64,000 nucleotides of DNA, from the NCBI GenBank assembly GCA_025353725.1, contig JANXOF010000016.1:1-64000 (forward strand), given 5' to 3'. Of the stretch, positions 52,225-63,314 are shown piece by piece; position 1 is the first letter of the stretch; each line of letters opens with the position of its first letter. The position numbers were made by a program, and so were the translations under genes. The DNA comes from Polyangiaceae bacterium. Its GTDB lineage: Bacteria; Myxococcota_A; Polyangia; Polyangiales; Polyangiaceae. The notes beneath the pieces were generated by a model. The model saw only the letters and a program-made list of their open reading frames with translations. It had not been told where the DNA came from and did no database searches.

Positions 52225-52721
52225 GCTCACTTCGGCCGCTGACGGTCATCGCGGTGATCATCATGGTCGTCAACGACCACATTCTCAAACATGCATGGCC
52301 AGGGTTCATCACAGGCAAGCTTTCGGATATCGTTGGGATGATCTATTTCCCGTGTTTACTGCACATACTTTTGTGGATTTTGCTTTCGAAGAAAGTCGCG
52401 CCGACCCCGACGCGGCTCGACAATTCGCTGCTGTTCGTTTGCTTCGTGACTGCCATCGTTTTCTCACTCACGAAAACGACGGCCTTCGGTAACGAGGCGT
52501 ACCGCGTGGCTTGGGGCGCGATGCAATGGCCTTGGTCGGCGTTCCGCGCAGCTCTGCGAGGCGCGACAATTCCAGGACTTGCGCGCGTGGGGCTTGTGCG
52601 CGATCCAACCGATCTCCTTGCGGTTCCATTCGCCGCCTTGGCATTTGCGTCGGGGCGGACGCCTCCTGCACCTACACCTACGGGAGCGACTGCCTTAGAG
52701 GCTAATACGGCTGGCAGTTGA
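52221..52721 (+). CDS. Small integral membrane protein, 166 aa
   Basis: GTG 52221 overlaps the stop of the secreted-protein gene. About four helices are seen (LTVIAVIIMVVND; YFPCLLHILLWILL; SLLFVCFVTAIVFSL; DLLAVPFAALAFA). A conserved-looking entry reads NDHILKHAWPGFITGKLSDI, which I recall from an unnamed family of bacterial membrane proteins with the same lead motif. Function unknown. Its end overlaps the convergent PIG-L gene by 20 bases. Confidence 0.68.
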   Translation: MSSLRPLTVIAVIIMVVNDHILKHAWPGFITGKLSDIVGMIYFPCLLHILLWILLSKKVAPTPTRLDNSLLFVCFVTAIVFSLTKTTAFGNEAYRVAWGAMQWPWSAFRAALRGATIPGLARVGLVRDPTDLLAVPFAALAFASGRTPPAPTPTGATALEANTAGS

Positions 52722-54156
52722 CTTGGTCGGGTGGCGCGTTCGAGACCGCAATCGACGTACCCATGAAAAGCGGGTGAGGGTCGACGGCGAGACCGAAGAA
52801 CTCGCCGTCACGACGAAGCGTCAGCTCTGAGACGCCGCCGTCGTCGGGACGAACATCGGCATCGATTTCGAGCGTGTGGGCCGTCTTGTGCGACGACGCG
52901 GGCACAACCCAACGCCGAAGAACGCGCACCTCGGAGCGTTCGTTCCAGCGCTCCAAAATGAGCGCACCGAGCGTGCTCCGCAACACATACTCACCCCGTG
53001 CTCCGCGGAGCACTTCGAACGAGCTGTCTTCTTCCGCACGTCGAACGATGCAGCGGATTGGGCTCTTTTGCACCATTTCGCGCCACGACGTGCGACCGCT
53101 CGTTTGCCATTCGAGGGCGCTGCTCACGGCACCGAGAAGCGGGGTTCGCGCGCGGCGGAGACGGCCCTCGACGTCACGTTCGAGCGCTTCTGGGAAAAAC
53201 GGCTCACGGGCGCGCACGAAAGAAAAGAGGTAACTAAGATTCGGGAAAAGCGATCCGGTCTGCGACGCGTATTCGGCAATAGCCTGAAACTTAGGATTAG
53301 CGGTACGAGACGAACTGAGCATCGATGCGGGAACGGGCAAGAGCTCCAACGGAGCGTAGGCAGCGAGGGACGCGGGCAGCGCAGGCGCGTCTTCGGAGGG
53401 CGCAAACCTTACTTCGGCGCAGGGTGGTTCTCCCGCCGCCGTAGGCCAGCAGCCGCCGATGTGAACAAGCGCGCGGTGAAGGCGGGGAGCCGGCAAGGAA
53501 GAGCGTTCGAGCGCCCGGCGGACGTAGGCGTACGTAAACGCATGATCCGGGTGCTCGTCGATAGGATGAGACACGTAAACGTCGTGCGGTCGAAGGCGGT
53601 CGAGAAGCGACGCCAAGTCGAACGTGAGCGATTCCGATAGGTAGCGCGCCGGCTGTCCCGTAAGCCATGAATGGACGTCTATCTTTCTATGGCCTCGATG
53701 CGCGTACGTCGTATTCCCAACGTCACATTGACCAGTGCCGTCACGCCGCTCCAATGGCGGGAGCGGCACTTCACCGAGCTCGCCAAGGTGACCGTCGGGG
53801 TATCCGAGGAAGAAGATATCCTGTTCGCGCACGCCGAGGTGCGCCATCGCGGCGACGGTTTCGTCCTCGCGCCTCCACCCGTCACGCTCGCATGATAAGT
53901 CGCCGTTCGTCACCACCAGGACGGCCACCCTCCGCCCCGATGCGGCCTCGCGTGCGATGACGCCGGCAGCCATAATTGCCTCGTCGTCGGGGTGCGGGGC
54001 GACGATGAGGACGTCGACGACCGGAACCCTGTCCTCGACATAGGTTGCTGATTCTTGAACACGGGCGGCGCGTGGCGCGCACGCCCAAAGGCTGAGCCCT
54101 AGTGCCGCGACGGCTAAACATCCGCGTCGAAAGGTAAGCGGGAGACATGGCGACAT
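52702..54156 (-). CDS. PIG-L family deacetylase, lipoprotein
   Basis: A lipobox (SLWAC, Cys26) anchors the protein. The PIG-L/LmbE zinc site is complete: APHPDDE (residues 53-59) near the start and HPIDEHPDHAFT further on. This family removes N-acetyl groups from GlcNAc-type sugars. The C-terminal 250 residues extend well past the usual 230-residue domain and include AEYASQTGSLFPNLSYLFSF, perhaps a substrate-specific lobe. The location outside the inner leaflet suggests action on exported polysaccharide or envelope glycolipid. A GT2 synthase gene is divergent from it. Confidence 0.9.
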   Translation of the reverse strand: MSPCLPLTFRRGCLAVAALGLSLWACAPRAARVQESATYVEDRVPVVDVLIVAPHPDDEAIMAAGVIAREAASGRRVAVLVVTNGDLSCERDGWRREDETVAAMAHLGVREQDIFFLGYPDGHLGELGEVPLPPLERRDGTGQCDVGNTTYAHRGHRKIDVHSWLTGQPARYLSESLTFDLASLLDRLRPHDVYVSHPIDEHPDHAFTYAYVRRALERSSLPAPRLHRALVHIGGCWPTAAGEPPCAEVRFAPSEDAPALPASLAAYAPLELLPVPASMLSSSRTANPKFQAIAEYASQTGSLFPNLSYLFSFVRAREPFFPEALERDVEGRLRRARTPLLGAVSSALEWQTSGRTSWREMVQKSPIRCIVRRAEEDSSFEVLRGARGEYVLRSTLGALILERWNERSEVRVLRRWVVPASSHKTAHTLEIDADVRPDDGGVSELTLRRDGEFFGLAVDPHPLFMGTSIAVSNAPPDQVNCQPY

Positions 54157-54270: not shown

Positions 54271-55602
54271 ATGAAGCTCTTCCGTTCAGGAGTCGTCCGC
54301 CGAGCGCTGCTCGCGTCGCTCGGTCTTTTCCCTCTCCTTGGCGCCGTGATTAGCGTCGTTTGGATGGTCCTCGCGATGGGCGAACCAGGCGCGAGCGGCT
54401 TGACCAAGCTTGCCACGTGGACGCGCGCGATGCTCTCAAGCCCAATCGGCGTATTGGTGCTTGTCCAATCCGCCTATACCGCGCTGCTTAGTCTGCTTTG
54501 GACGCGCTACCGAACCTACGAGGCCCCGGAAGGAGCGGTCTGGCCGCGGGTGAGCGTTGTTATCCCGGCGTTCAACGAAGGACCAATGGTCGAACGAAGC
54601 ATTCGCTCCGTAGCGAATTGTGAATACCCGAAAGACCTACTCGAGATTATCGTGGTCGACGACGGCTCGCGCGACGATACGTTCTTCCACATTCAACGAT
54701 TGAGACGCGAATATCCCACTCTGGTCAAACTCGTTCGATTCAAGGGTAACAAAGGCAAACGAGAGGCACTCTGCTCTGGGTTTCGCGCGGCGACGGGAGA
54801 AATTCTGGTCACCATCGACTCCGACAGTGAAATCGAGGCTCGGACAATCCATGAAATGGTCGTCCCTTTTCTTGCAAACGCCGACGTAGGCGCCGTTGCC
54901 GGACGGGTAGCCGTTCTTAATCGAGATACAAACATTAGCCGCATGCTCGAGGTACAATATGCACTGGCTTTCGATTTTGGCCGCGCCGCGCAGTCGACCT
55001 ACGGCGCAGTAGCTTGCTGTCCCGGCGCGCTTTCTTCGTTTCGACGCGAAGCGGTGATGCCGTTCCTTGACGAGTGGTCGAATCAGATGTTTCTCGGCAG
55101 ACCCGTGAATCACGGCGAAGACCAAGCGCTTACAAACCTTGTCCTCCGTCAGGGCTACGACACCGTCTACCAACGCACGGCGGTCATCAACACCCTGGCT
55201 CCCGTCACGTATGGGCAAATGTCTCGCATGTTCGTCCGTTGGGACCGCAGTTATATCGTCGAAGGCTTTAGTTTCGCGAAGTTCATGTTTACGCGATACC
55301 GCGCGAAGAACCGAATGCTTCCGATTGTGACGTTCCTCGTGTCGAACTTGCGACTTTTCTTGTTCTTCTTCGCGCTACTCAGCCTACCAACAGCCTTCCG
55401 CACGGAGCTGACGGTCGTGTTTCATTCGGGCGTCGCATTGCTCGTCGGCGCACTCTTCACGGCTCTCTACTACCTGCGCGTCGAACGAAGCTTCCGGTTC
55501 CTATACGGCGTTCTGTATGCCGTGTTTAGCCTACTACTCTTACAGTGGATCCTGCCGTGGGCACTTATCACGGTGCGCGACGAGCGTTGGGGCACGCGAT
55601 GA
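54271..55602 (+). CDS. Processive GT2 glycosyltransferase (hyaluronan/poly-GlcNAc synthase-like)
   Basis: The 443-residue protein has two N-terminal helices, a cytoplasmic GT-A domain and three or four C-terminal helices. GT2 motifs are present: VSVVIPAFNEGPMVERSIRS, IIVVDDGSRDDT, GNKGKREAL, TIDSDSE (DxD), GEDQALTNLVL, and the processivity motif RMFVRWDRS, which takes the place of QxxRW. It resembles HasA/NodC/PgaC, which polymerise and export a sugar chain. Such enzymes are often controlled by c-di-GMP. The PIG-L lipoprotein gene next door, divergent by 115 bases, could deacetylate the product, as PgaB does for poly-GlcNAc. This link is inference. Confidence 0.9.
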   Translation: MKLFRSGVVRRALLASLGLFPLLGAVISVVWMVLAMGEPGASGLTKLATWTRAMLSSPIGVLVLVQSAYTALLSLLWTRYRTYEAPEGAVWPRVSVVIPAFNEGPMVERSIRSVANCEYPKDLLEIIVVDDGSRDDTFFHIQRLRREYPTLVKLVRFKGNKGKREALCSGFRAATGEILVTIDSDSEIEARTIHEMVVPFLANADVGAVAGRVAVLNRDTNISRMLEVQYALAFDFGRAAQSTYGAVACCPGALSSFRREAVMPFLDEWSNQMFLGRPVNHGEDQALTNLVLRQGYDTVYQRTAVINTLAPVTYGQMSRMFVRWDRSYIVEGFSFAKFMFTRYRAKNRMLPIVTFLVSNLRLFLFFFALLSLPTAFRTELTVVFHSGVALLVGALFTALYYLRVERSFRFLYGVLYAVFSLLLLQWILPWALITVRDERWGTR

Positions 55603-55751: not shown

Positions 55752-56774
55752 ATGTCTCTCCGAACCTGGCTACCTTTGCCTACGCCGCCCGCGACACTCG
55801 GCCTAAGTTTAGCTCTCTCGCTCGTGGTGGCCTGCAGTAGCGGAAACACCTCTGAATTCGCGATTCCGTCTGCGGGTGGTACGTCGGAGGATCCTCCTTC
55901 GCAAGGCTCGTTCGCGAACAATGACGGTGGCGCTCCTGCAGAGGCCGGGGTGGCGGCATTGCCAGCTAATTTCATCAAAACGGAGTCCGGCGGCTATGCC
56001 CTCGGACCCGCCCTCACCCGCGATGGCGGCGACGCGGTCGCGAGCCGCAACGCACCTGCACCCGGCGTGAATTGCAACTTACTCGTCGGGGTCGTGCGCG
56101 ACTTCAAAGGGAAAGACGTCGGCGGACACCCTGACTTTCAAGCCTTCGGGGGAAAAAAACCGACGATTGGGCTAGTCGCGCCTGCGCTCAATAGCGCGCG
56201 TAAGCCCACCTACGCCTCGGCGTGCGAGAGCGCCAATCTAGGCAACAAAGAGGCGTGCCCTTATGGCCCGATGACCACGAATAAGCCAGCATTCAACCAA
56301 TGGTATACGTTTGCGGAGGAGGTCAATAAGCCGTATATTCTTTACCTGCAGCTCGTTTCGAATGGCTCATCCGTCTCGACATTCGCAAGCAAAAGATTTT
56401 TTCCGCTCGACGGCGCTGGCTGGCAAGACGCGAATCCCGACGAAGACAAGAAGCTTCGCAACTTCGGCTTTACCACTGAACTTCATACTCAATTTATTTA
56501 CGCCGGAGGCGAGTCTTTTACGTTCACTGGCGACGACGATCTTTGGGTGTTTATCAATGGAAAGTTAGCTATCGATCTCGGCGGTCTTCATCCTGCCGCG
56601 AACGCAACGGTCAACCTCGACGAGGCTGCACTCCACCTTGGGCTCACGAAGGGGCGCAGCTATTCACTCGAACTGTTTCACGCCGAGCGTCACGCGGATA
56701 AGTCGAACTTCCGTATCGATACGAATCTAGCGTTTACCGACTGCGGTTCCGCGCTGCCCGACAGCCCCAAATAG
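55752..56774 (+). CDS. Fibro-slime domain lipoprotein (PA14-like)
   Basis: The lipobox VVACSSG (Cys28) follows a signal peptide. A disordered linker leads to a fibro-slime domain (TIGR02148): VGVVRDFKGKDVGGHPDF, a PAFNQWYTF stretch, KRFFPLDGAGWQD, FGFTTELHTQFIYAGGESF, FTGDDDLWVFINGKLAIDLG and ELFHAERHADKSNFRIDT. The DDDLWVFING and HAERH motifs are intact. The domain is typical of surface and extracellular-matrix proteins in Myxococcota and Dictyostelium, probably binding sugars with calcium. It follows the GT2 gene by 150 bases on the same strand. Confidence 0.92.
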   Translation: MSLRTWLPLPTPPATLGLSLALSLVVACSSGNTSEFAIPSAGGTSEDPPSQGSFANNDGGAPAEAGVAALPANFIKTESGGYALGPALTRDGGDAVASRNAPAPGVNCNLLVGVVRDFKGKDVGGHPDFQAFGGKKPTIGLVAPALNSARKPTYASACESANLGNKEACPYGPMTTNKPAFNQWYTFAEEVNKPYILYLQLVSNGSSVSTFASKRFFPLDGAGWQDANPDEDKKLRNFGFTTELHTQFIYAGGESFTFTGDDDLWVFINGKLAIDLGGLHPAANATVNLDEAALHLGLTKGRSYSLELFHAERHADKSNFRIDTNLAFTDCGSALPDSPK

Positions 56775-56823: not shown

Positions 56824-57852
56824 TCAAAGCGCCTTTAGCGAAAGCAAACGCGCATGAACCACCCGCCGCGGCCTCGCGTTGATGTCAGCCACGTCAAACC
56901 GCGCAATCGTCACGGTTTTAACCACCGTGGGCAAGCCACCTGTCGGCGCGTTTTCCGTGACTCTAACCTGGCTACCCTCAAACACCGGAGTGACGGGAAC
57001 GCTCGCGCCACTGGGAAGCCGTATGTCCGATTCGAGGCGAATCGTGAGCTCCGCGCCTTTCGCGCCGCGAAGGGAGAGCTTTTCCTTTCGAAGCGCTGCT
57101 ACCGCCCGCCTTCGCGCGTCACTCCAAGCGCCCGCGTCACCAGACGAACTCAGAAGGCGAACGTCAACGACCGCGCCATCCGCGTTGACGACGGCGAGGA
57201 GCGTCGCAACGCCGCGCATGGGAGCAAGTCCGCTCGTCGCAGCCTCTTCGAGCGCTTTGAGGACCGGGCCTTCGGGGCCAAGTCCCAGCTCCACGTCGCG
57301 CGCTCGCGCGGCGGCAGATAGCGAACGCTCGACCGCAACTTTAGACTCCGATGCGGACGGCGCCTCGGGCGCGGACGACCACACTGCTCGCGTTTCTGCT
57401 CGCGACTCGCCCGCATCGGCCTGTTCAACAAAGAAATGGAGGCCTGCACCAAGCCCTGCGAGAGGCACCGCCGACACGATGGGGCTGCGAAAAGTTCCGA
57501 ATGTTACTCCCGCGGAACCCGTACGGATCGCGTCCGGAAGGGCCGCAGCGGTCGCGACTGTCGCGGACGGCACCACGAGTCGTTGCACGGAAGCGAAAGG
57601 TTTTCCTGCTTTCTCCAAAGAAGCGGTCGCGCGCGCGGTCGAATCAGCCGCCGCGTAGAAGGGCAAGCGTTCTTCCGCGGTTGCGAGGTCGAAGAGCGCG
57701 ACGGCAGGGTCATCCGGAAGCAAAGGCTCGTGTCTCCGCGGTTGCTCGCCTACGAGCGCGCCGAGCAACGCGGCATGCGTGACCGCAGCGAAAGCCAGCG
57801 CGGTCGTCGGGCGAGTCGTGTTCCCGAATCGCGCCTTCGCTCCTGTCTTCAC
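56824..57852 (-). CDS. TonB-like periplasmic protein, 342 aa
   Basis: The GTG start overlaps the stop of the large NTPase gene (GTGA), so the two are coupled. An N-terminal helix (TTALAFAAVTHAALLGALVG) anchors the protein in the inner membrane, as in TonB. A long linker follows. Residues of about 215-275 read GVATLLAVVNADGAVVDVRL, then SDARRRAVAALRKEKLSL, which is the pattern of the TonB C-terminal domain. The rest of the C-terminus is beta-rich. It could transduce signals or force across the periplasm; no ExbB/ExbD is here. The TonB assignment is moderate. Confidence 0.65.
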   Translation of the reverse strand: MKTGAKARFGNTTRPTTALAFAAVTHAALLGALVGEQPRRHEPLLPDDPAVALFDLATAEERLPFYAAADSTARATASLEKAGKPFASVQRLVVPSATVATAAALPDAIRTGSAGVTFGTFRSPIVSAVPLAGLGAGLHFFVEQADAGESRAETRAVWSSAPEAPSASESKVAVERSLSAAARARDVELGLGPEGPVLKALEEAATSGLAPMRGVATLLAVVNADGAVVDVRLLSSSGDAGAWSDARRRAVAALRKEKLSLRGAKGAELTIRLESDIRLPSGASVPVTPVFEGSQVRVTENAPTGGLPTVVKTVTIARFDVADINARPRRVVHARLLSLKAL

Positions 57853-60800
57853 GGCAAAGGCCGCGCGATCGGGAACGCGTTCAAGCTCGTTTGCGCGCGA
57901 AGTACGCGGCGTACCGCGCCTTCGGGAAGCGAGTAGGCGTCTGGCGAAGTGAGGTCGCCGTGAGGGACGAGGAGCCCGCTCTCATCCAACAGTTGAATCG
58001 TGACGTGGGCGGCCTCCTCAGCGCGGCGTTCGAGCTCCTCCGCAGCAAGCGTGTGGTCGATTCCCGTGCTTACGAAGTCTTCCGCGATGCGGGTTTTTGC
58101 GAGGACTTGAAGCTCGAAGGCGGAGACACTTTCCTCGCGCGCCAGGCGACGAAGAAGCACGCCGGCGACCGTCGCACGAGCGGCGATCTCGCTCTCGACC
58201 CACACGCGTACGGGGGACCCCTCACGCGCCTCGCGCTCGATGGCTTCGGTGGCGCCCTCAATGCCCACTTCGACCGCGCCAAGGCTACCTTGCCGTGCGC
58301 GCTCCGGATCGTAGAGTTCGAGAACCGAGGCACCGATGCGACGGAGCAAGAGCGGTACGCCTTGTGACTCTTCGACGATCCGCTTGAGCGCCGCCTCGGA
58401 AAAGCGAATGCCTTGGCGCGCGCCTAGGCTTCGCATCATCGTCGTTGCCGCGTCGTCACCGAGGCACGGAACGCAGACACGCTGAAAACTCCCCATAATG
58501 GACTGGTTCGCGAGCGTGCGAAGTGGCGCCCAAAGCAAAGGGTGAATGGCGCTCCCGAGAAGCACGCCCACGGGTGACCCCCCTTCGGCTCGCCCGTGAG
58601 CGTCACCGACAGCGCTTTTCAAACGGCCTATCACAATAGCGAGAACGTCGAGCGCGTGAGCGAGCTTCGTCGGCCCAACAGCCAGTACCTGCTCGACCTC
58701 ATCGAGAATGATGAGCAGTGGCGGCGGCCGACCCGACGCCTCACGGCATGCGCGTGAGAAATCCCGAAGCCAAAGCGTGAGCGTCGCCGCGTCGAGCGTC
58801 GCATTCGCATCCGGCGCGGGTCTCATCGCAGCCGTTGGCCAACGCGAGCGCGCGGACTCCTCGAGCGAGAGGCAGATGTAGCGAAGGATGGCGTTCACGG
58901 CGACGGCCGGGTTGTCGTCGTGACCGATTTCGTGATCGAACCCGGCGAGGTCGACGTACGCGGACGGCCCGGGAAGGCGGCGAGCGACCTCGAGCGTGAG
59001 CGACGACTTACCAAAGCGACGGAGGCCGGTCACCACCGTCCAATGTCCCGCCTGCGCGGAGGCGAGCAAGCCCGAAACCAAACGCTCTCGATTGAAAAAT
59101 TGAGCGGACGAGGTGATGCGCCCGCGAAGCTCAAACGGGTTTCCGCGGAGCGACGACTGCTCCACGAGGTCCAGCACGTCGTGCGCACTCTTCGACCATC
59201 GCGCGCGGCTCACGGCGATTGGGAGAATCTGCACGGCGCGCGAACCGCCTTTCGCCGCCCACTCGAGCATCGCGCGAATCGCGGACAAGTCGGGTGAGGC
59301 GTCGTCGTCGTGCTCGAGTAGCACCACGGAGGCTCCGGCTCGCCGCGCGACGAACGCCGCGTGGTTGACGTCGCGCTCCAGAACGCGCGTGCCTTTCGGT
59401 GTTCGAACGACGAGCGCCGTCGTTCCCCACTGCTCCCATGCCGCGTCCGACGGGAGCGCAAGCTCGAGAGCGTCGTAACGCGAGGGGAGCAGGTTTCGCA
59501 GGCGGTCCGCACGCGAAGAAAGGCCTATCGCCTCGAAAAATGCGCTCGTGTCACGCGCCCACGAGGCGTAGGAAGTCCTCGCTGCGCGCAGGCGCCTCGC
59601 CCATACGGCAGCCCCAAACAGCGCCGCGAGCAAAAGCAACGATCCCACAAGCTTGCGCGAGCGTGTCGACCACGTCTCTTGCAGACGAAGGACAAGCGCA
59701 CAGTCATACGCCGCGTCGGACGCAAGCTCGCCGCACCGCAGGCAGCGCGCGTCCGTGAGCCCTATCAGCGCGCAGGCCGACCCGCCTCGACTCACGTGAG
59801 AAAACCATTCGCCGGTCGTTTGCGAAGCGTCGTAACGCACCGCCTCAACGGGACGCGACGAGCGCGCGTCGACGCGAAAGGGCGGACCGTCCGTCCCCTC
59901 GCCGAAGCCACGCGCGAAGAGAGCGAGACGGCTCAGCGCGTCCGCGAACGTAGCGGGGTCTCCGCGCCGCTCTTCGCAATGGGCGCGAAGCCGAGCCATC
60001 AACGTTGCAGGGGCGTCTTTATCCGTGCCAACGGCCTCGTCGGGCGACGGGGGATGCACGAACGCGCCGTCGATCGACGCGGACTTTCCCTCCCAAAGAA
60101 GGCGGGCGTAATCCGCGCAAAGACGTAGCGGCGCACCCGCGTCATCGAGCGGCTTCGACGCAAGCGCCGTCCACGCCGAAACGGCGACGTCGAACTCGTG
60201 CGAAGGCACGGCGCACGTCGACGGGGCAGGCATCGTTTGCATCGAGCGCACGGCGCGAGCGCAGGTAGCGGCGCTGGAACCCTCGACCCACTGTTTTTTG
60301 ATCGCGTCGACTTTCTCAAGCTTTGCGGCGGTGAGAGACCGAGCGGGCGGGAGCGTCGCCGCTAGCCACACGCCGTACGGTGCACGCTCGGTGGCGTCGT
60401 CCAGGTAACATGCGAAGAGCTTTGCCTGCGCGGCTTCGGCAATTTCACGCCACGGGTCGACGCCCTTTGCGATGTGCGGCGTTGGGAAGTCTTCAATCCA
60501 CGGCGCGATGGACTCCGGCGTGAGAGCTCCGCATTCCGTCGCCCAAACCTCCTGGACGCGACGCTGCACGACCAGCGAACCGCTCGACTCAAGCAGCTGC
60601 TGAATCTGGCGCGCGCGACCGCATTCGAGAGCGTCTGCGGCCCCCGCGCCACACGGCGCCGCGATTTGAAACGCACGCACGAGGTGCATCGCCGCGCTTA
60701 GTGGAGCGCCCGCAGGCCCAGCGACTGCCGCGTGAGCGTGTTGAGCTTCAGCGATGAGGTCGGCGTCGAGCGGCGAAGCACTCGCAAACCAGGCGTCTAT

Positions 60801-61463
60801 CGCAACGCCGTTGCGCCCTCGAAGCTGTTCCCACGAACGGGGCGCGACGATCTTCAACGCCTCAATAAGCAGCCGTCGATGAAAAAGCCTGCCGCCTCCG
60901 CCCTTCGTAAACCGCTGGAGCGAGCGTTCAATCGGCGTGTTCCCGCCGCGCGCGCGGGGCAGCGCATCTGTCTCACCCGATTGGTAAGACGCTATCTGGC
61001 CAAGCCACGCCGAGGCGTTCGTCCAGCCGCTAAACGTGCCGTCTAAGCGCGTTTGCTGCTCTGGTGACACACATCCCGTGTCGGTCCCGCCGCGCGATTG
61101 GCCGCGCGCGAGATTGTCCGCGAACGCAGCCGTGGCCGTACACAGATGCTCGCGATCTTTGACGCACGTCTTCGAAGCCACGGCGCTCTGGTCGAGTCTC
61201 TCCGCCGTTGAGGCGAGCTCTTGCTTACAAACGAGTCCGTCGCGCTCTGCCGTGACTGCACTGCGCTGAGCCTCGACCACCGCGCGCTGCGACGCTTCGA
61301 GCGCACGCAGCTCAAGCTCACACGTCGCCCCGGCGTCCAACGCAAGCACGCGCTGCGCATGCGCTGGCGTTGGCCAGCACAACCCGCACGCCAGGATGCC
61401 CATCGCGATGGGCCGCGCGACACCTAGCGCCTTAGGAAAACAGTGCATGGCGCGGACTGACAT
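57849..61463 (-). CDS. Transmembrane STAND/AAA-type NTPase with Cys-rich periplasmic domain, 1204 aa
   Basis: A signal peptide (residues 1-36, AHA-Q cleavage) starts the protein. Residues 37-603 are exported, helical, and contain about 17 Cys, including CLRC at 574-577. One membrane helix spans about 604-622 (KLVGSLLLLAALFGAAVWA). A cytoplasmic alpha/beta region of about 120 residues follows, then an NTPase core: FFNRERLV, Walker A GLRRFGKSSL (813-822) and Walker B PLLIILDEVEQVL (Asp921-Glu922), then GVLLGSAIHPLLW. A helical/winged C-terminal part completes it. GxRRxGKSSL is typical of STAND-like AAA ATPases. The start overlaps the membrane gene upstream by 40 bases and its stop overlaps the TonB-like gene. 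Function unknown; a signal-transducing ATPase is inferred. Confidence 0.82.
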   Translation of the reverse strand: MSVRAMHCFPKALGVARPIAMGILACGLCWPTPAHAQRVLALDAGATCELELRALEASQRAVVEAQRSAVTAERDGLVCKQELASTAERLDQSAVASKTCVKDREHLCTATAAFADNLARGQSRGGTDTGCVSPEQQTRLDGTFSGWTNASAWLGQIASYQSGETDALPRARGGNTPIERSLQRFTKGGGGRLFHRRLLIEALKIVAPRSWEQLRGRNGVAIDAWFASASPLDADLIAEAQHAHAAVAGPAGAPLSAAMHLVRAFQIAAPCGAGAADALECGRARQIQQLLESSGSLVVQRRVQEVWATECGALTPESIAPWIEDFPTPHIAKGVDPWREIAEAAQAKLFACYLDDATERAPYGVWLAATLPPARSLTAAKLEKVDAIKKQWVEGSSAATCARAVRSMQTMPAPSTCAVPSHEFDVAVSAWTALASKPLDDAGAPLRLCADYARLLWEGKSASIDGAFVHPPSPDEAVGTDKDAPATLMARLRAHCEERRGDPATFADALSRLALFARGFGEGTDGPPFRVDARSSRPVEAVRYDASQTTGEWFSHVSRGGSACALIGLTDARCLRCGELASDAAYDCALVLRLQETWSTRSRKLVGSLLLLAALFGAAVWARRLRAARTSYASWARDTSAFFEAIGLSSRADRLRNLLPSRYDALELALPSDAAWEQWGTTALVVRTPKGTRVLERDVNHAAFVARRAGASVVLLEHDDDASPDLSAIRAMLEWAAKGGSRAVQILPIAVSRARWSKSAHDVLDLVEQSSLRGNPFELRGRITSSAQFFNRERLVSGLLASAQAGHWTVVTGLRRFGKSSLTLEVARRLPGPSAYVDLAGFDHEIGHDDNPAVAVNAILRYICLSLEESARSRWPTAAMRPAPDANATLDAATLTLWLRDFSRACREASGRPPPLLIILDEVEQVLAVGPTKLAHALDVLAIVIGRLKSAVGDAHGRAEGGSPVGVLLGSAIHPLLWAPLRTLANQSIMGSFQRVCVPCLGDDAATTMMRSLGARQGIRFSEAALKRIVEESQGVPLLLRRIGASVLELYDPERARQGSLGAVEVGIEGATEAIEREAREGSPVRVWVESEIAARATVAGVLLRRLAREESVSAFELQVLAKTRIAEDFVSTGIDHTLAAEELERRAEEAAHVTIQLLDESGLLVPHGDLTSPDAYSLPEGAVRRVLRAQTSLNAFPIARPLP

Positions 61464-63193
61464 GAGAACAAGGGCTGGAATTCAGACTGAGCAAGAAATG
61501 CAGCTCTCGTGAGATCGCCAACGATCAGCATACGGACCGAGCGATCCGCCACCACGCGCTCGATAAAGTCACGCGGCGCATCGGCGGCCAACCAGCGTGC
61601 GTCATGCGAAAGGTCGGTCGGCCACGCAAGGTAGGGCAGGTCGAGCGAGTCGTCGAACGCGACGGTCTCATGGTGCAGGACGTGGGCATGGGCATCGAGG
61701 AACTTGGTAGGTCGGCCATCCGCACCGACGGCGCGTGCGCGCGCGGCGGGTGCCATAGCGAGATACTCGAAAAGCGGCGGACCGTCGCCCGAAAGGCCAC
61801 GCCCGGCGTAACCAACTGAAAGGAGTGCGGAAGCAGCCGCAAGCCATAGCACCGACCTGCCGACGCGCCCTTCGAGATCGCGCATCGAGGATGCCGCGAG
61901 TGCAAGCAAGACGGCGGGAAAGGCGAAGACGTAGCGCGCGATGGCGGGATCTGGCGACGCAAGGGTGGCGGCCAAAGCCACGAGGAGAGGGACTGAACGA
62001 CGACGAAACGCAGCCATACACGCAAAAGGAAGCGCCACAAGAAAGACGACGCCAAGGCCTCCGAAACGCATGTCAAACGCCGGCGGAGCACTGAGGCTGC
62101 TCCACGAGCGCAGGATACGCAACAATCCGCGTCCTTCAAGGTGCGGTGCGGCCGCGCCCGATTCGAGGAGAAAGCGCATGGGCAAAACGCCCGAGAGATG
62201 GAGCGGGCCAACGTTCACTTGCACTGGCCAAATGGGATTACCGTGCCGCGCGAAGTTGACGACGTAGGACTCCGCGCCGAGGAACAGAATGGTTATCACC
62301 GCGACGGCAAGCGTCTTACGCCGCCCGTCACGCCAACCTCGAATGGCAACGATCGCGAAAAGAAGCACAGTTCCTAGTGGTGCGTTGGGCTTCGACCCGA
62401 GGAACAACCCAAGCGAAACGCCCGCGAGCAATACGTTGCGTGCCGTCGCCGGAGCGAGCACAAAACAGACGCTCGCCAGGAGCAGCGAAGCCGACGCGAC
62501 ATCTACGTAATTCGTCGGAAGCTGCAGGAAGACTGCAGGCAAGGTCAGCCACGCGAGACCTGCCGCAACTGCATGGTCACGGCGCGCACCGAAGTCTCGA
62601 GCAAGCGTCGCGATGGCTAAAGCGCCCAGCAGTCCGAAAGGGATTTGGGCTGCGTCGACCAGGCGATCATCGGGCAGCATCGCGCGCCACGCGAGAAAGA
62701 CGTGTTCAACGACATGCGGATACGTAGATATATAAAATAGGTCGGGGGGAACGTCTGCAAAGGAGCCGTGCTGCAACACGAAATCGACATACGGCAAATG
62801 ATAGCCGAGCGAGTCCCACTGCCAGACGGGCAACAGGTACGCCGCCGCAAGGCACACCATCAACGCGGCGACGGAGAGAACCACCAGCGGCGAGCTCTCT
62901 ACGGTAACGAGTTGGCGCCACGGGAGAGCGAGCTTCCACTCACGCCGCCACGCGCAAAGCGCGACCGTTCCCACGAGAAGCACCCCGAAGAGACTCGCTT
63001 GGCGGACCCATCCAAAAGCCCCAAGAAGACGCACTACGGTCCCAAGGAGCCCAAGACCCAGAATCGCGCCGCCGAGAACCTGTCGCCGGGGTTCATCCGC
63101 GAAGAGTGTCGCTCCAAGCCGCATGACGACGACCGCGAACAGCGCGAGCGCGAGCGGCAACACGCCCCAAGCCGTAGACAACAAGGTGGCCAT
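61424..63193 (-). CDS. GT-C-like integral membrane protein
   Basis: From ATG 63193 the product has 589 residues, with about eleven helices and a soluble C-terminal region of 120 residues. Between helices the stretch LPVWQWDSLGYHLPYVDFVL contains the Asp and Tyr typical of the first periplasmic loop of GT-C glycosyltransferases (Trp-Asp-Ser-x-x-Tyr-His), and FISTYPHVVEH carries further His residues. The donor would be a lipid-linked sugar, but neither activity nor substrate is shown. TTG 63232 gives a longer reading. It is the first gene of the operon with the NTPase. Confidence 0.75.
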   Translation of the reverse strand: MATLLSTAWGVLPLALALFAVVVMRLGATLFADEPRRQVLGGAILGLGLLGTVVRLLGAFGWVRQASLFGVLLVGTVALCAWRREWKLALPWRQLVTVESSPLVVLSVAALMVCLAAAYLLPVWQWDSLGYHLPYVDFVLQHGSFADVPPDLFYISTYPHVVEHVFLAWRAMLPDDRLVDAAQIPFGLLGALAIATLARDFGARRDHAVAAGLAWLTLPAVFLQLPTNYVDVASASLLLASVCFVLAPATARNVLLAGVSLGLFLGSKPNAPLGTVLLFAIVAIRGWRDGRRKTLAVAVITILFLGAESYVVNFARHGNPIWPVQVNVGPLHLSGVLPMRFLLESGAAAPHLEGRGLLRILRSWSSLSAPPAFDMRFGGLGVVFLVALPFACMAAFRRRSVPLLVALAATLASPDPAIARYVFAFPAVLLALAASSMRDLEGRVGRSVLWLAAASALLSVGYAGRGLSGDGPPLFEYLAMAPAARARAVGADGRPTKFLDAHAHVLHHETVAFDDSLDLPYLAWPTDLSHDARWLAADAPRDFIERVVADRSVRMLIVGDLTRAAFLAQSEFQPLFSCQSAPCTVFLRR

Positions 63194-63314
63194 CAGGCAC
63201 CGCGGTTTACTGCCCTCTCGCCGCCCAGCCAAGCAAGCGTCACGAAAGCCAGTAAAATTGAGCGTTACTCATCGGCTAGCCTGCTGCGCGACAGCGGGGC
63301 CTGCACGCCCCCCC

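Follow-up and report, generated by a model that had tools for sequence, protein, structure and literature searches.

A transmembrane STAND-type NTPase partnered with a HAS/NodC-like polysaccharide synthase in Myxococcota

We analyzed the first 64,000 nucleotides of contig JANXOF010000016.1 from a Polyangiaceae bacterium (assembly GCA_025353725.1), a 64-kb stretch, here called the window, that opens a 213-kb contig of a 6.6-Mb genome. It encodes a STAND-type NTPase that spans the inner membrane and is related to the NTPase core of immune receptors in plants and animals, and in two Myxococcota families the gene for this protein is paired one-to-one with a gene for a sugar-polymer synthase of glycosyltransferase family GT2. 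The partnership of NTPase and GT2 is strongly evidenced, and the patchy distribution of the genes makes their coupling striking, even though the genomes are not independent. We consider it probable that the locus encodes a synthase-dependent surface polysaccharide system, so far specific to Myxococcota, in which the transmembrane NTPase regulates or assembles the synthase/export complex. The two central genes of the window are as follows.

54271-55602, plus strand: processive GT2 polysaccharide synthase resembling hyaluronan synthase (HAS) and NodC (matches to PDB entries and the NodC model; exact co-occurrence with the NTPase gene)
57849-61463, minus strand: transmembrane STAND-type NTPase gene, 1204 amino acids (likely true start, Met6, at 61448)

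A first-pass annotation, made from the sequence alone, had drawn attention to a block of three overlapping minus-strand genes with the NTPase gene at its center. The GT2 gene lies 2.2 kb from that block, on the opposite strand and outside the region then described, and both it and a neighboring PIG-L gene had been omitted. We called and clustered the genes around all orthologs of the NTPase; the set comprises 28 loci (12 from the class Polyangia and 16 others), and 22 orthologs form the rows of the protein alignment. When the window NTPase was used as a single-protein query against the genome contigs there was no match, and a scan with the alignment then gave 21 loci. Nearly all of the surveyed genomes are metagenome-assembled genomes (MAGs), genes in this high-GC DNA were called with a simple in-house caller, and the search tools apply candidate filters, so that the absences reported here are not absolute. 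Carriers of the gene include Polyangiaceae, Myxococcaceae, Archangium, and other Myxococcota MAGs. The NTPase has full-length orthologs at 43-66% identity, which excludes chance open reading frames (ORFs).

Of the 108 genomes in the family to which the window belongs, 10 carry the NTPase, and the same 10 have a GT2 scoring above 800 bits, the next GT2s scoring below 380 bits. Three complete genomes of this family, 12-14 Mb in size (G081, G082, and G083), are among those with the locus. A second family, reached via a Myxococcaceae MAG, has the NTPase in 15 of 96 genomes and the GT2 in exactly the same 15. The probability of identical genome sets arising by chance is about 1e-14 and 1e-17, respectively, if genomes are treated as independent, although they are in fact related. 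A sample of 377 genomes across the phylum contained five with a GT2 above 550 bits, and these are the genomes with a full-length NTPase or, in one case (G070), with an NTPase-less form of the protein. Three other proteins of this sample that matched the NTPase profile at E values near 1e-6 (G406, G158, and G303) share only a short NTPase stretch and were rejected as orthologs. The two genes are side by side in G412 and G469, which belong to other families of the class, and overall the GT2 is near the NTPase gene in 24 of the 28 loci; the four genomes without an adjacent GT2 carry it elsewhere. At Myxococcia-type loci the GT2 gene follows the NTPase gene on the same strand; the two often share an operon, and four loci show 4-base overlaps. 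The open-licence papers that we searched on STAND proteins and polysaccharide synthases contain no description of such a pairing.

The GT2 protein matches solved hyaluronan synthases in the PDB (E = 6e-37), and the NCBIfam model for NodC, TIGR04242, matches most of its length (E = 1e-55; 189 bits, against a cutoff of 550). These matches identify it as a HAS/NodC-like processive synthase of unspecified product, by its sequence a relative of NodC and not NodC itself. Like class I hyaluronan synthase and NodC, it carries the DDG, DSD, and GED catalytic motifs, the RW of the xxRW motif, a C-terminal membrane part, and a terminal WGTR. It differs in that nearly all rows read in this clade have MxxRW in place of the QxxRW of processive synthases (RW kept, Q replaced by M), and in always being associated with a STAND NTPase, a partner that neither HAS nor NodC is known to require. 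The C terminus reads RDERWGTR, invariant or nearly so, and the protein ends exactly there in nearly all rows read, whereas unlinked relatives differ. All NTPase-linked GT2s fall into one clade (support, 100/98).

The NTPase protein is organized as follows (all features on the minus strand).

61353-61463, minus strand: signal peptide, residues ~1-37, ending in CWPTPAHAQ (hydrophobic segment at 12-30; AHA-Q cleavage-like site read from the sequence)
59655-61352, minus strand: exported half, residues 38-603 (coiled coil at ~46-161, then an all-helical solenoid-like region; 12 to 16 conserved Cys)
59589-59654, minus strand: single transmembrane helix, residues ~604-625, with basic residues after it (continuous helix 586-645 in the model)
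59154-59504, minus strand: cytoplasmic alpha/beta domain, residues ~654-770 (from the model; mean pairwise identity, 0.62)
58284-59117, minus strand: STAND-type NTPase core, residues ~783-1060 (AAA_16 and VIA fold matches)
59001-59027, minus strand: Walker A, GLRRFGKSS, residues 813-821 (kept in 22/22 rows save one F-to-M change)
58689-58715, minus strand: Walker B, hhhhDExEQ, residues 917-925, with D921, E922, any residue, E924, and Q925 (invariant in 22/22 rows)
57879-58283, minus strand: C-terminal winged-helix region, residues ~1061-1195 (from the model and fold search)

The NTPase is the best-conserved part of the protein, with a mean pairwise identity of 0.71 overall and 0.83 around Walker A. 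Besides the Walker motifs, a GVPLLLRR (GxP) motif is retained throughout the 22 rows with conservative changes. Given these motifs and the highest identity in the protein, the NTPase is not degenerate, and its early description as an NTPase of the RRFGKSSL class known from STAND proteins stands. AAA_16 matches all 22 orthologs (the window protein at 29.4 bits, under the curated cutoff of 32.6), and nSTAND1 matches 5 of the 22 (the window protein at 15.2 bits against a cutoff of 27.1). A search of PDB sequences with the NTPase profile gave no match. By fold, ATPase_2 proteins and the STAND proteins of the NLR/CED-4 group rank first, with VIA Z scores for the modeled NTPase of 16.6 for 2qen, 16.1 for RPP1, 15.7 for WRR4A, 15.3 for NRC4, and 14.2 for CED-4, and with alignments that span about 285-320 residues, winged helix included. 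Because ORC/Cdc6 ranks close behind, the assignment to an exact clade is approximate.

In G070 the ortholog (L021:3097-5397; 766 amino acids) has the exported half and transmembrane helix fused in frame to the C-terminal winged helix, without residues ~630-1062 (the alpha/beta domain and the NTPase), and the flanking GT-C and GT2 genes are intact; either the segment was really lost or the assembly is in error. The NTPase gene of G469 (L101:8800-12506) lies in two frames near profile position 1010, a frameshift in the gene or in the assembly. A second, soluble NTPase of AAA_16/AAA_22 type is encoded between the transmembrane NTPase and the GT2 in both G412 (L078:9435-10499; 354 amino acids) and G469 (L101:7770-8867; 365 amino acids).

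An AlphaFold2 model built from the 22 orthologs has a mean predicted local distance difference test score (pLDDT) of 79.8 for residues 38-1204 and of 84.8 for the exported half modeled alone. From the N terminus it places a long coiled coil, the helical solenoid-like region, a 60-residue membrane-crossing helix, the alpha/beta domain, the NTPase, and the winged helix. Topology and model thus bear out the first-pass proposal that a Cys-rich exported half is joined through one helix to a cytoplasmic NTPase. Across the 22 orthologs, the exported half retains 12 to 16 conserved Cys residues. The pair C564 and C574 is complete in 15 rows and wholly missing from the other 7, as expected of a disulfide in an oxidizing compartment, and the exported half is, judging by this pattern, apparently disulfide-bonded. 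It has no convincing match to a solved fold and does not match a known enzyme: the best Foldseek E value is 0.13, and the best VIA Z score, 6.6 over 63 residues, falls inside the background of helical models. A new fold does not follow from these results.

In the system that we propose, the GT2 would polymerize a sugar and translocate the polymer across the inner membrane, as hyaluronan synthase or NodC does. The lipoprotein PIG-L enzyme would probably de-N-acetylate the polymer, and the GT-C protein, or elsewhere a phosphoglycerol transferase of the LtaS/MdoB type, would probably decorate it outside the membrane. The NTPase would serve as the dedicated partner of the synthase. Its disulfide-rich helical periplasmic half would contact the polymer, the modifying enzymes, or the envelope, and the periplasmic state would be relayed through the single helix to the STAND NTPase, where ATP/ADP exchange and oligomerization would switch on the synthase/export complex or put it together. 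We infer contact with the synthase, the direction of signaling, and the switching mechanism of the NTPase, as we do the identity of the polymer and its route of export across the outer membrane. More tentatively, we suggest that this membrane-built STAND NTPase with an exported sensor half could be the ATP-driven switch on which a processive polysaccharide synthase depends, a kind of control distinct from that by cyclic di-GMP, BY-kinases, or co-polymerases.

Several observations weigh against this interpretation. Co-occurrence by itself is no demonstration of contact, and related genomes are not independent. In Polyangia the GT2 and NTPase genes are mostly convergent and therefore do not form one transcript. 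To our knowledge, HAS and NodC function without an NTPase partner of this kind. The G070 ortholog lacks the NTPase core in frame, unless its assembly is in error, and no conserved outer-membrane exporter gene was recognized in the neighborhoods of the NTPase. Clusters with GT2 and PIG-L genes but without the NTPase occur in G045, G001, and G002, that of G045 also with a GT-C gene; in view of such related clusters, the NTPase looks like a control or assembly component that was added to a single synthase lineage.

We regard the locus as a variant within the synthase-dependent polysaccharide systems, with a pairing that is real and undescribed in the open-licence literature searched. The Pga, Bcs, and Alg machines likewise combine a processive synthase with a helical periplasmic part or TPR scaffold (PMC9601211). 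At the loci studied here, in contrast, the helical part in the periplasm forms one protein with an NTPase, and we recognized no gene for a beta-barrel exporter in the surroundings. As at this locus, a deacetylase belongs to the Pga system. Polysaccharide co-polymerases of the PCP-2a/Wzc type with a BY-kinase work in a way similar to that proposed here, having a large helical periplasmic domain, a cytoplasmic P-loop domain, and a polysaccharide synthesis partner, and their oligomeric state controls export (PMC12004946). The protein described here has one transmembrane helix rather than two, a STAND NTPase rather than a BY-kinase, and a synthase-type rather than a Wzx/Wzy pathway, and we found no sequence similarity between it and PCP-2a/Wzc. 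Its NTPase and winged helix align over about 290 residues (Z scores of 14-17) with STAND/ATPase_2 proteins such as plant NLRs, CED-4, SSO1545, and PABY2304, and the Walker A, Walker B, and GxP motifs are likewise kept. It departs from the usual STAND plan in having a signal peptide, a transmembrane helix, and a 570-residue exported half instead of cytoplasmic sensor repeats, with an additional alpha/beta domain between the membrane and the NTPase.

Among other explanations, the one that survives best, which we nevertheless regard as unlikely, is an envelope-assembly factor similar to ExeA/GspA: the periplasmic half would bind or space peptidoglycan or an exporter, oligomerization of the NTPase would install an exit channel, and the synthase would not be switched. 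ExeA, which assembles a secretin, shares the plan of one transmembrane helix, a cytoplasmic AAA-type ATPase, and a large periplasmic domain (PMC4098917). In the model, the long coiled coil of the exported half could span the periplasm, and the TonB-like protein encoded next to the NTPase in the window resembles ExeB-type partners, although in layout only. The domain order from N to C terminus, however, is opposite to that of ExeA. No peptidoglycan-binding domain was matched by Pfam in the exported half of any of the 22 orthologs, although a very divergent one could escape; no conserved exporter gene is recognized nearby, and the linked genes are glycan genes rather than those of type II secretion.

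We think it improbable that the protein is an outside-in signaling receptor, with an exported half that senses a ligand, a STAND NTPase and winged helix that alter gene expression or another output, and the GT2 as just one target. A STAND NTPase with a winged helix does resemble regulators, and the exported half evolves faster (mean pairwise identity of 0.36-0.45, against 0.71 for the NTPase), as receptors often do. The winged helix of STAND proteins is normally a switch arm, however, and not a DNA binder; there is no other output domain and no regulator conserved nearby, and the pairing with a single enzyme is strictly one-to-one. It is more improbable still that the NTPase and GT2 merely share a surface-polysaccharide island and act independently. 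Patchy distribution and the variability of the other genes would fit such an island, but the two genes overlap in one operon in several loci and are both retained in the four genomes where they are no longer adjacent. We give very little credence to a role in anti-phage defense or conflict, such as many STAND NTPases have in multicellular bacteria. Conflict systems do commonly include STAND NTPases (PMC7159879, PMC8195603), and the distribution is patchy, but the best PADLOC match is trivial (E = 0.006; 13.5 bits), no effector, protease, or nuclease domain was found, the presumed sensor half is exported, and the conserved neighbors are glycan enzymes rather than a defense neighborhood.

The first-pass annotation had offered outside-in signaling, surface assembly, and defense as possible functions; of these, surface assembly fits best. 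Its membrane STAND NTPase with an exported half is upheld, and its TonB-like component, its three-gene unit, and its defense role are abandoned. Most work on STAND NTPases concerns cytosolic sensors that act in immunity, cell death, and transcription. If the NTPase does switch the synthase, this would be a new mode of polysaccharide control and would give the STAND fold a new role. The locus points to an uncharacterized surface polymer, possibly one containing N-acetylhexosamine, in social and predatory bacteria; the main exopolysaccharide described from Myxococcus xanthus is made by a Wzx/Wzy pathway (PMC12004946).

Three further genes of the window adjoin the NTPase or GT2 genes.

52702-54156, minus strand: PIG-L family de-N-acetylase, putative lipoprotein with a LSLWAC lipobox (PF02585, E = 2e-24)
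61424-63232, minus strand: GT-C-like polytopic membrane protein, 602 amino acids from a TTG start (589 amino acids from an ATG at 63193)
56824-57852, minus strand: TonB-like protein, 342 amino acids, GTG start (4-base overlap with the NTPase stop; genome-specific)

The GT-C-like, NTPase, and TonB-like ORFs overlap by 40 bases and then by 4 bases (GTGA), as originally described. The end first given for the GT-C-like gene, 63193, equals its ATG start, and the ORF itself reaches 63232 from the TTG. In six orthologous loci the GT-C and NTPase genes overlap by 25 bases; translation of the window NTPase from Met6 (61448) would yield the same overlap, and Met6 is thus its likely start.

The three genes do not form a conserved unit. 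The GT-C gene adjoins the NTPase gene in 9 of the 12 Polyangia-class loci, often with the 25-base overlap, and is mostly missing from the 16 other loci. It was rejected as an obligate partner because G057, G412, G469, and nearly all Myxococcia-type loci have no GT-C gene next to the NTPase gene. The TonB-like gene has no relative in any other orthologous NTPase neighborhood; a role for it as a component of the system is accordingly unsupported, and TonB-dependent energy coupling was rejected as well. Both names are to be taken loosely. The TonB C-terminal domain scores 18.7 bits against a cutoff of 27.1, and Pfam also places it under cutoff. For the GT-C-like protein, neither Pfam nor NCBIfam has a family that matches above cutoff (DUF2079 is matched by one of eight members, at E = 0.009), and a PDB sequence search with its profile gave no match; its label is suggested by topology (at least nine hydrophobic segments) and a WDSLGYHLP motif, with W137, D140, and Y144-H145 invariant. 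In G081 (L017:5639-15000), two GT-C-like gene copies stand in tandem, and an extra PMT_2 glycosyltransferase gene lies between the GT2 and NTPase genes. The window also encodes a secreted fibro-slime domain protein (55752-56774; TIGR02148, E = 3e-32) between the GT2 and TonB-like genes; none was seen in the orthologous loci.

A PIG-L gene is located no more than about 10 kb from the NTPase gene in 9 of the 11 genomes checked, each of which has only 0 to 5 PIG-L genes, and in G062 it is directly 3' of the NTPase gene on the same strand, 2 bases apart. Loci that lack the GT-C gene often have instead a gene for an LtaS/MdoB-like membrane protein, a member of the sulfatase superfamily, and no NTPase locus was seen with both. 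At Myxococcia-type loci (L106:4799-6525, L109, L110, L121, and L123), two conserved membrane-protein genes adjoin the PIG-L gene; their products, of about 405 and 167 amino acids, have no Pfam or NCBIfam match, and the larger appears GT-C-like by eye. In L107 and L108, the NTPase gene is divergent from a conserved cluster upstream of it that encodes an NnrS-like protein and an AMP-binding ligase.

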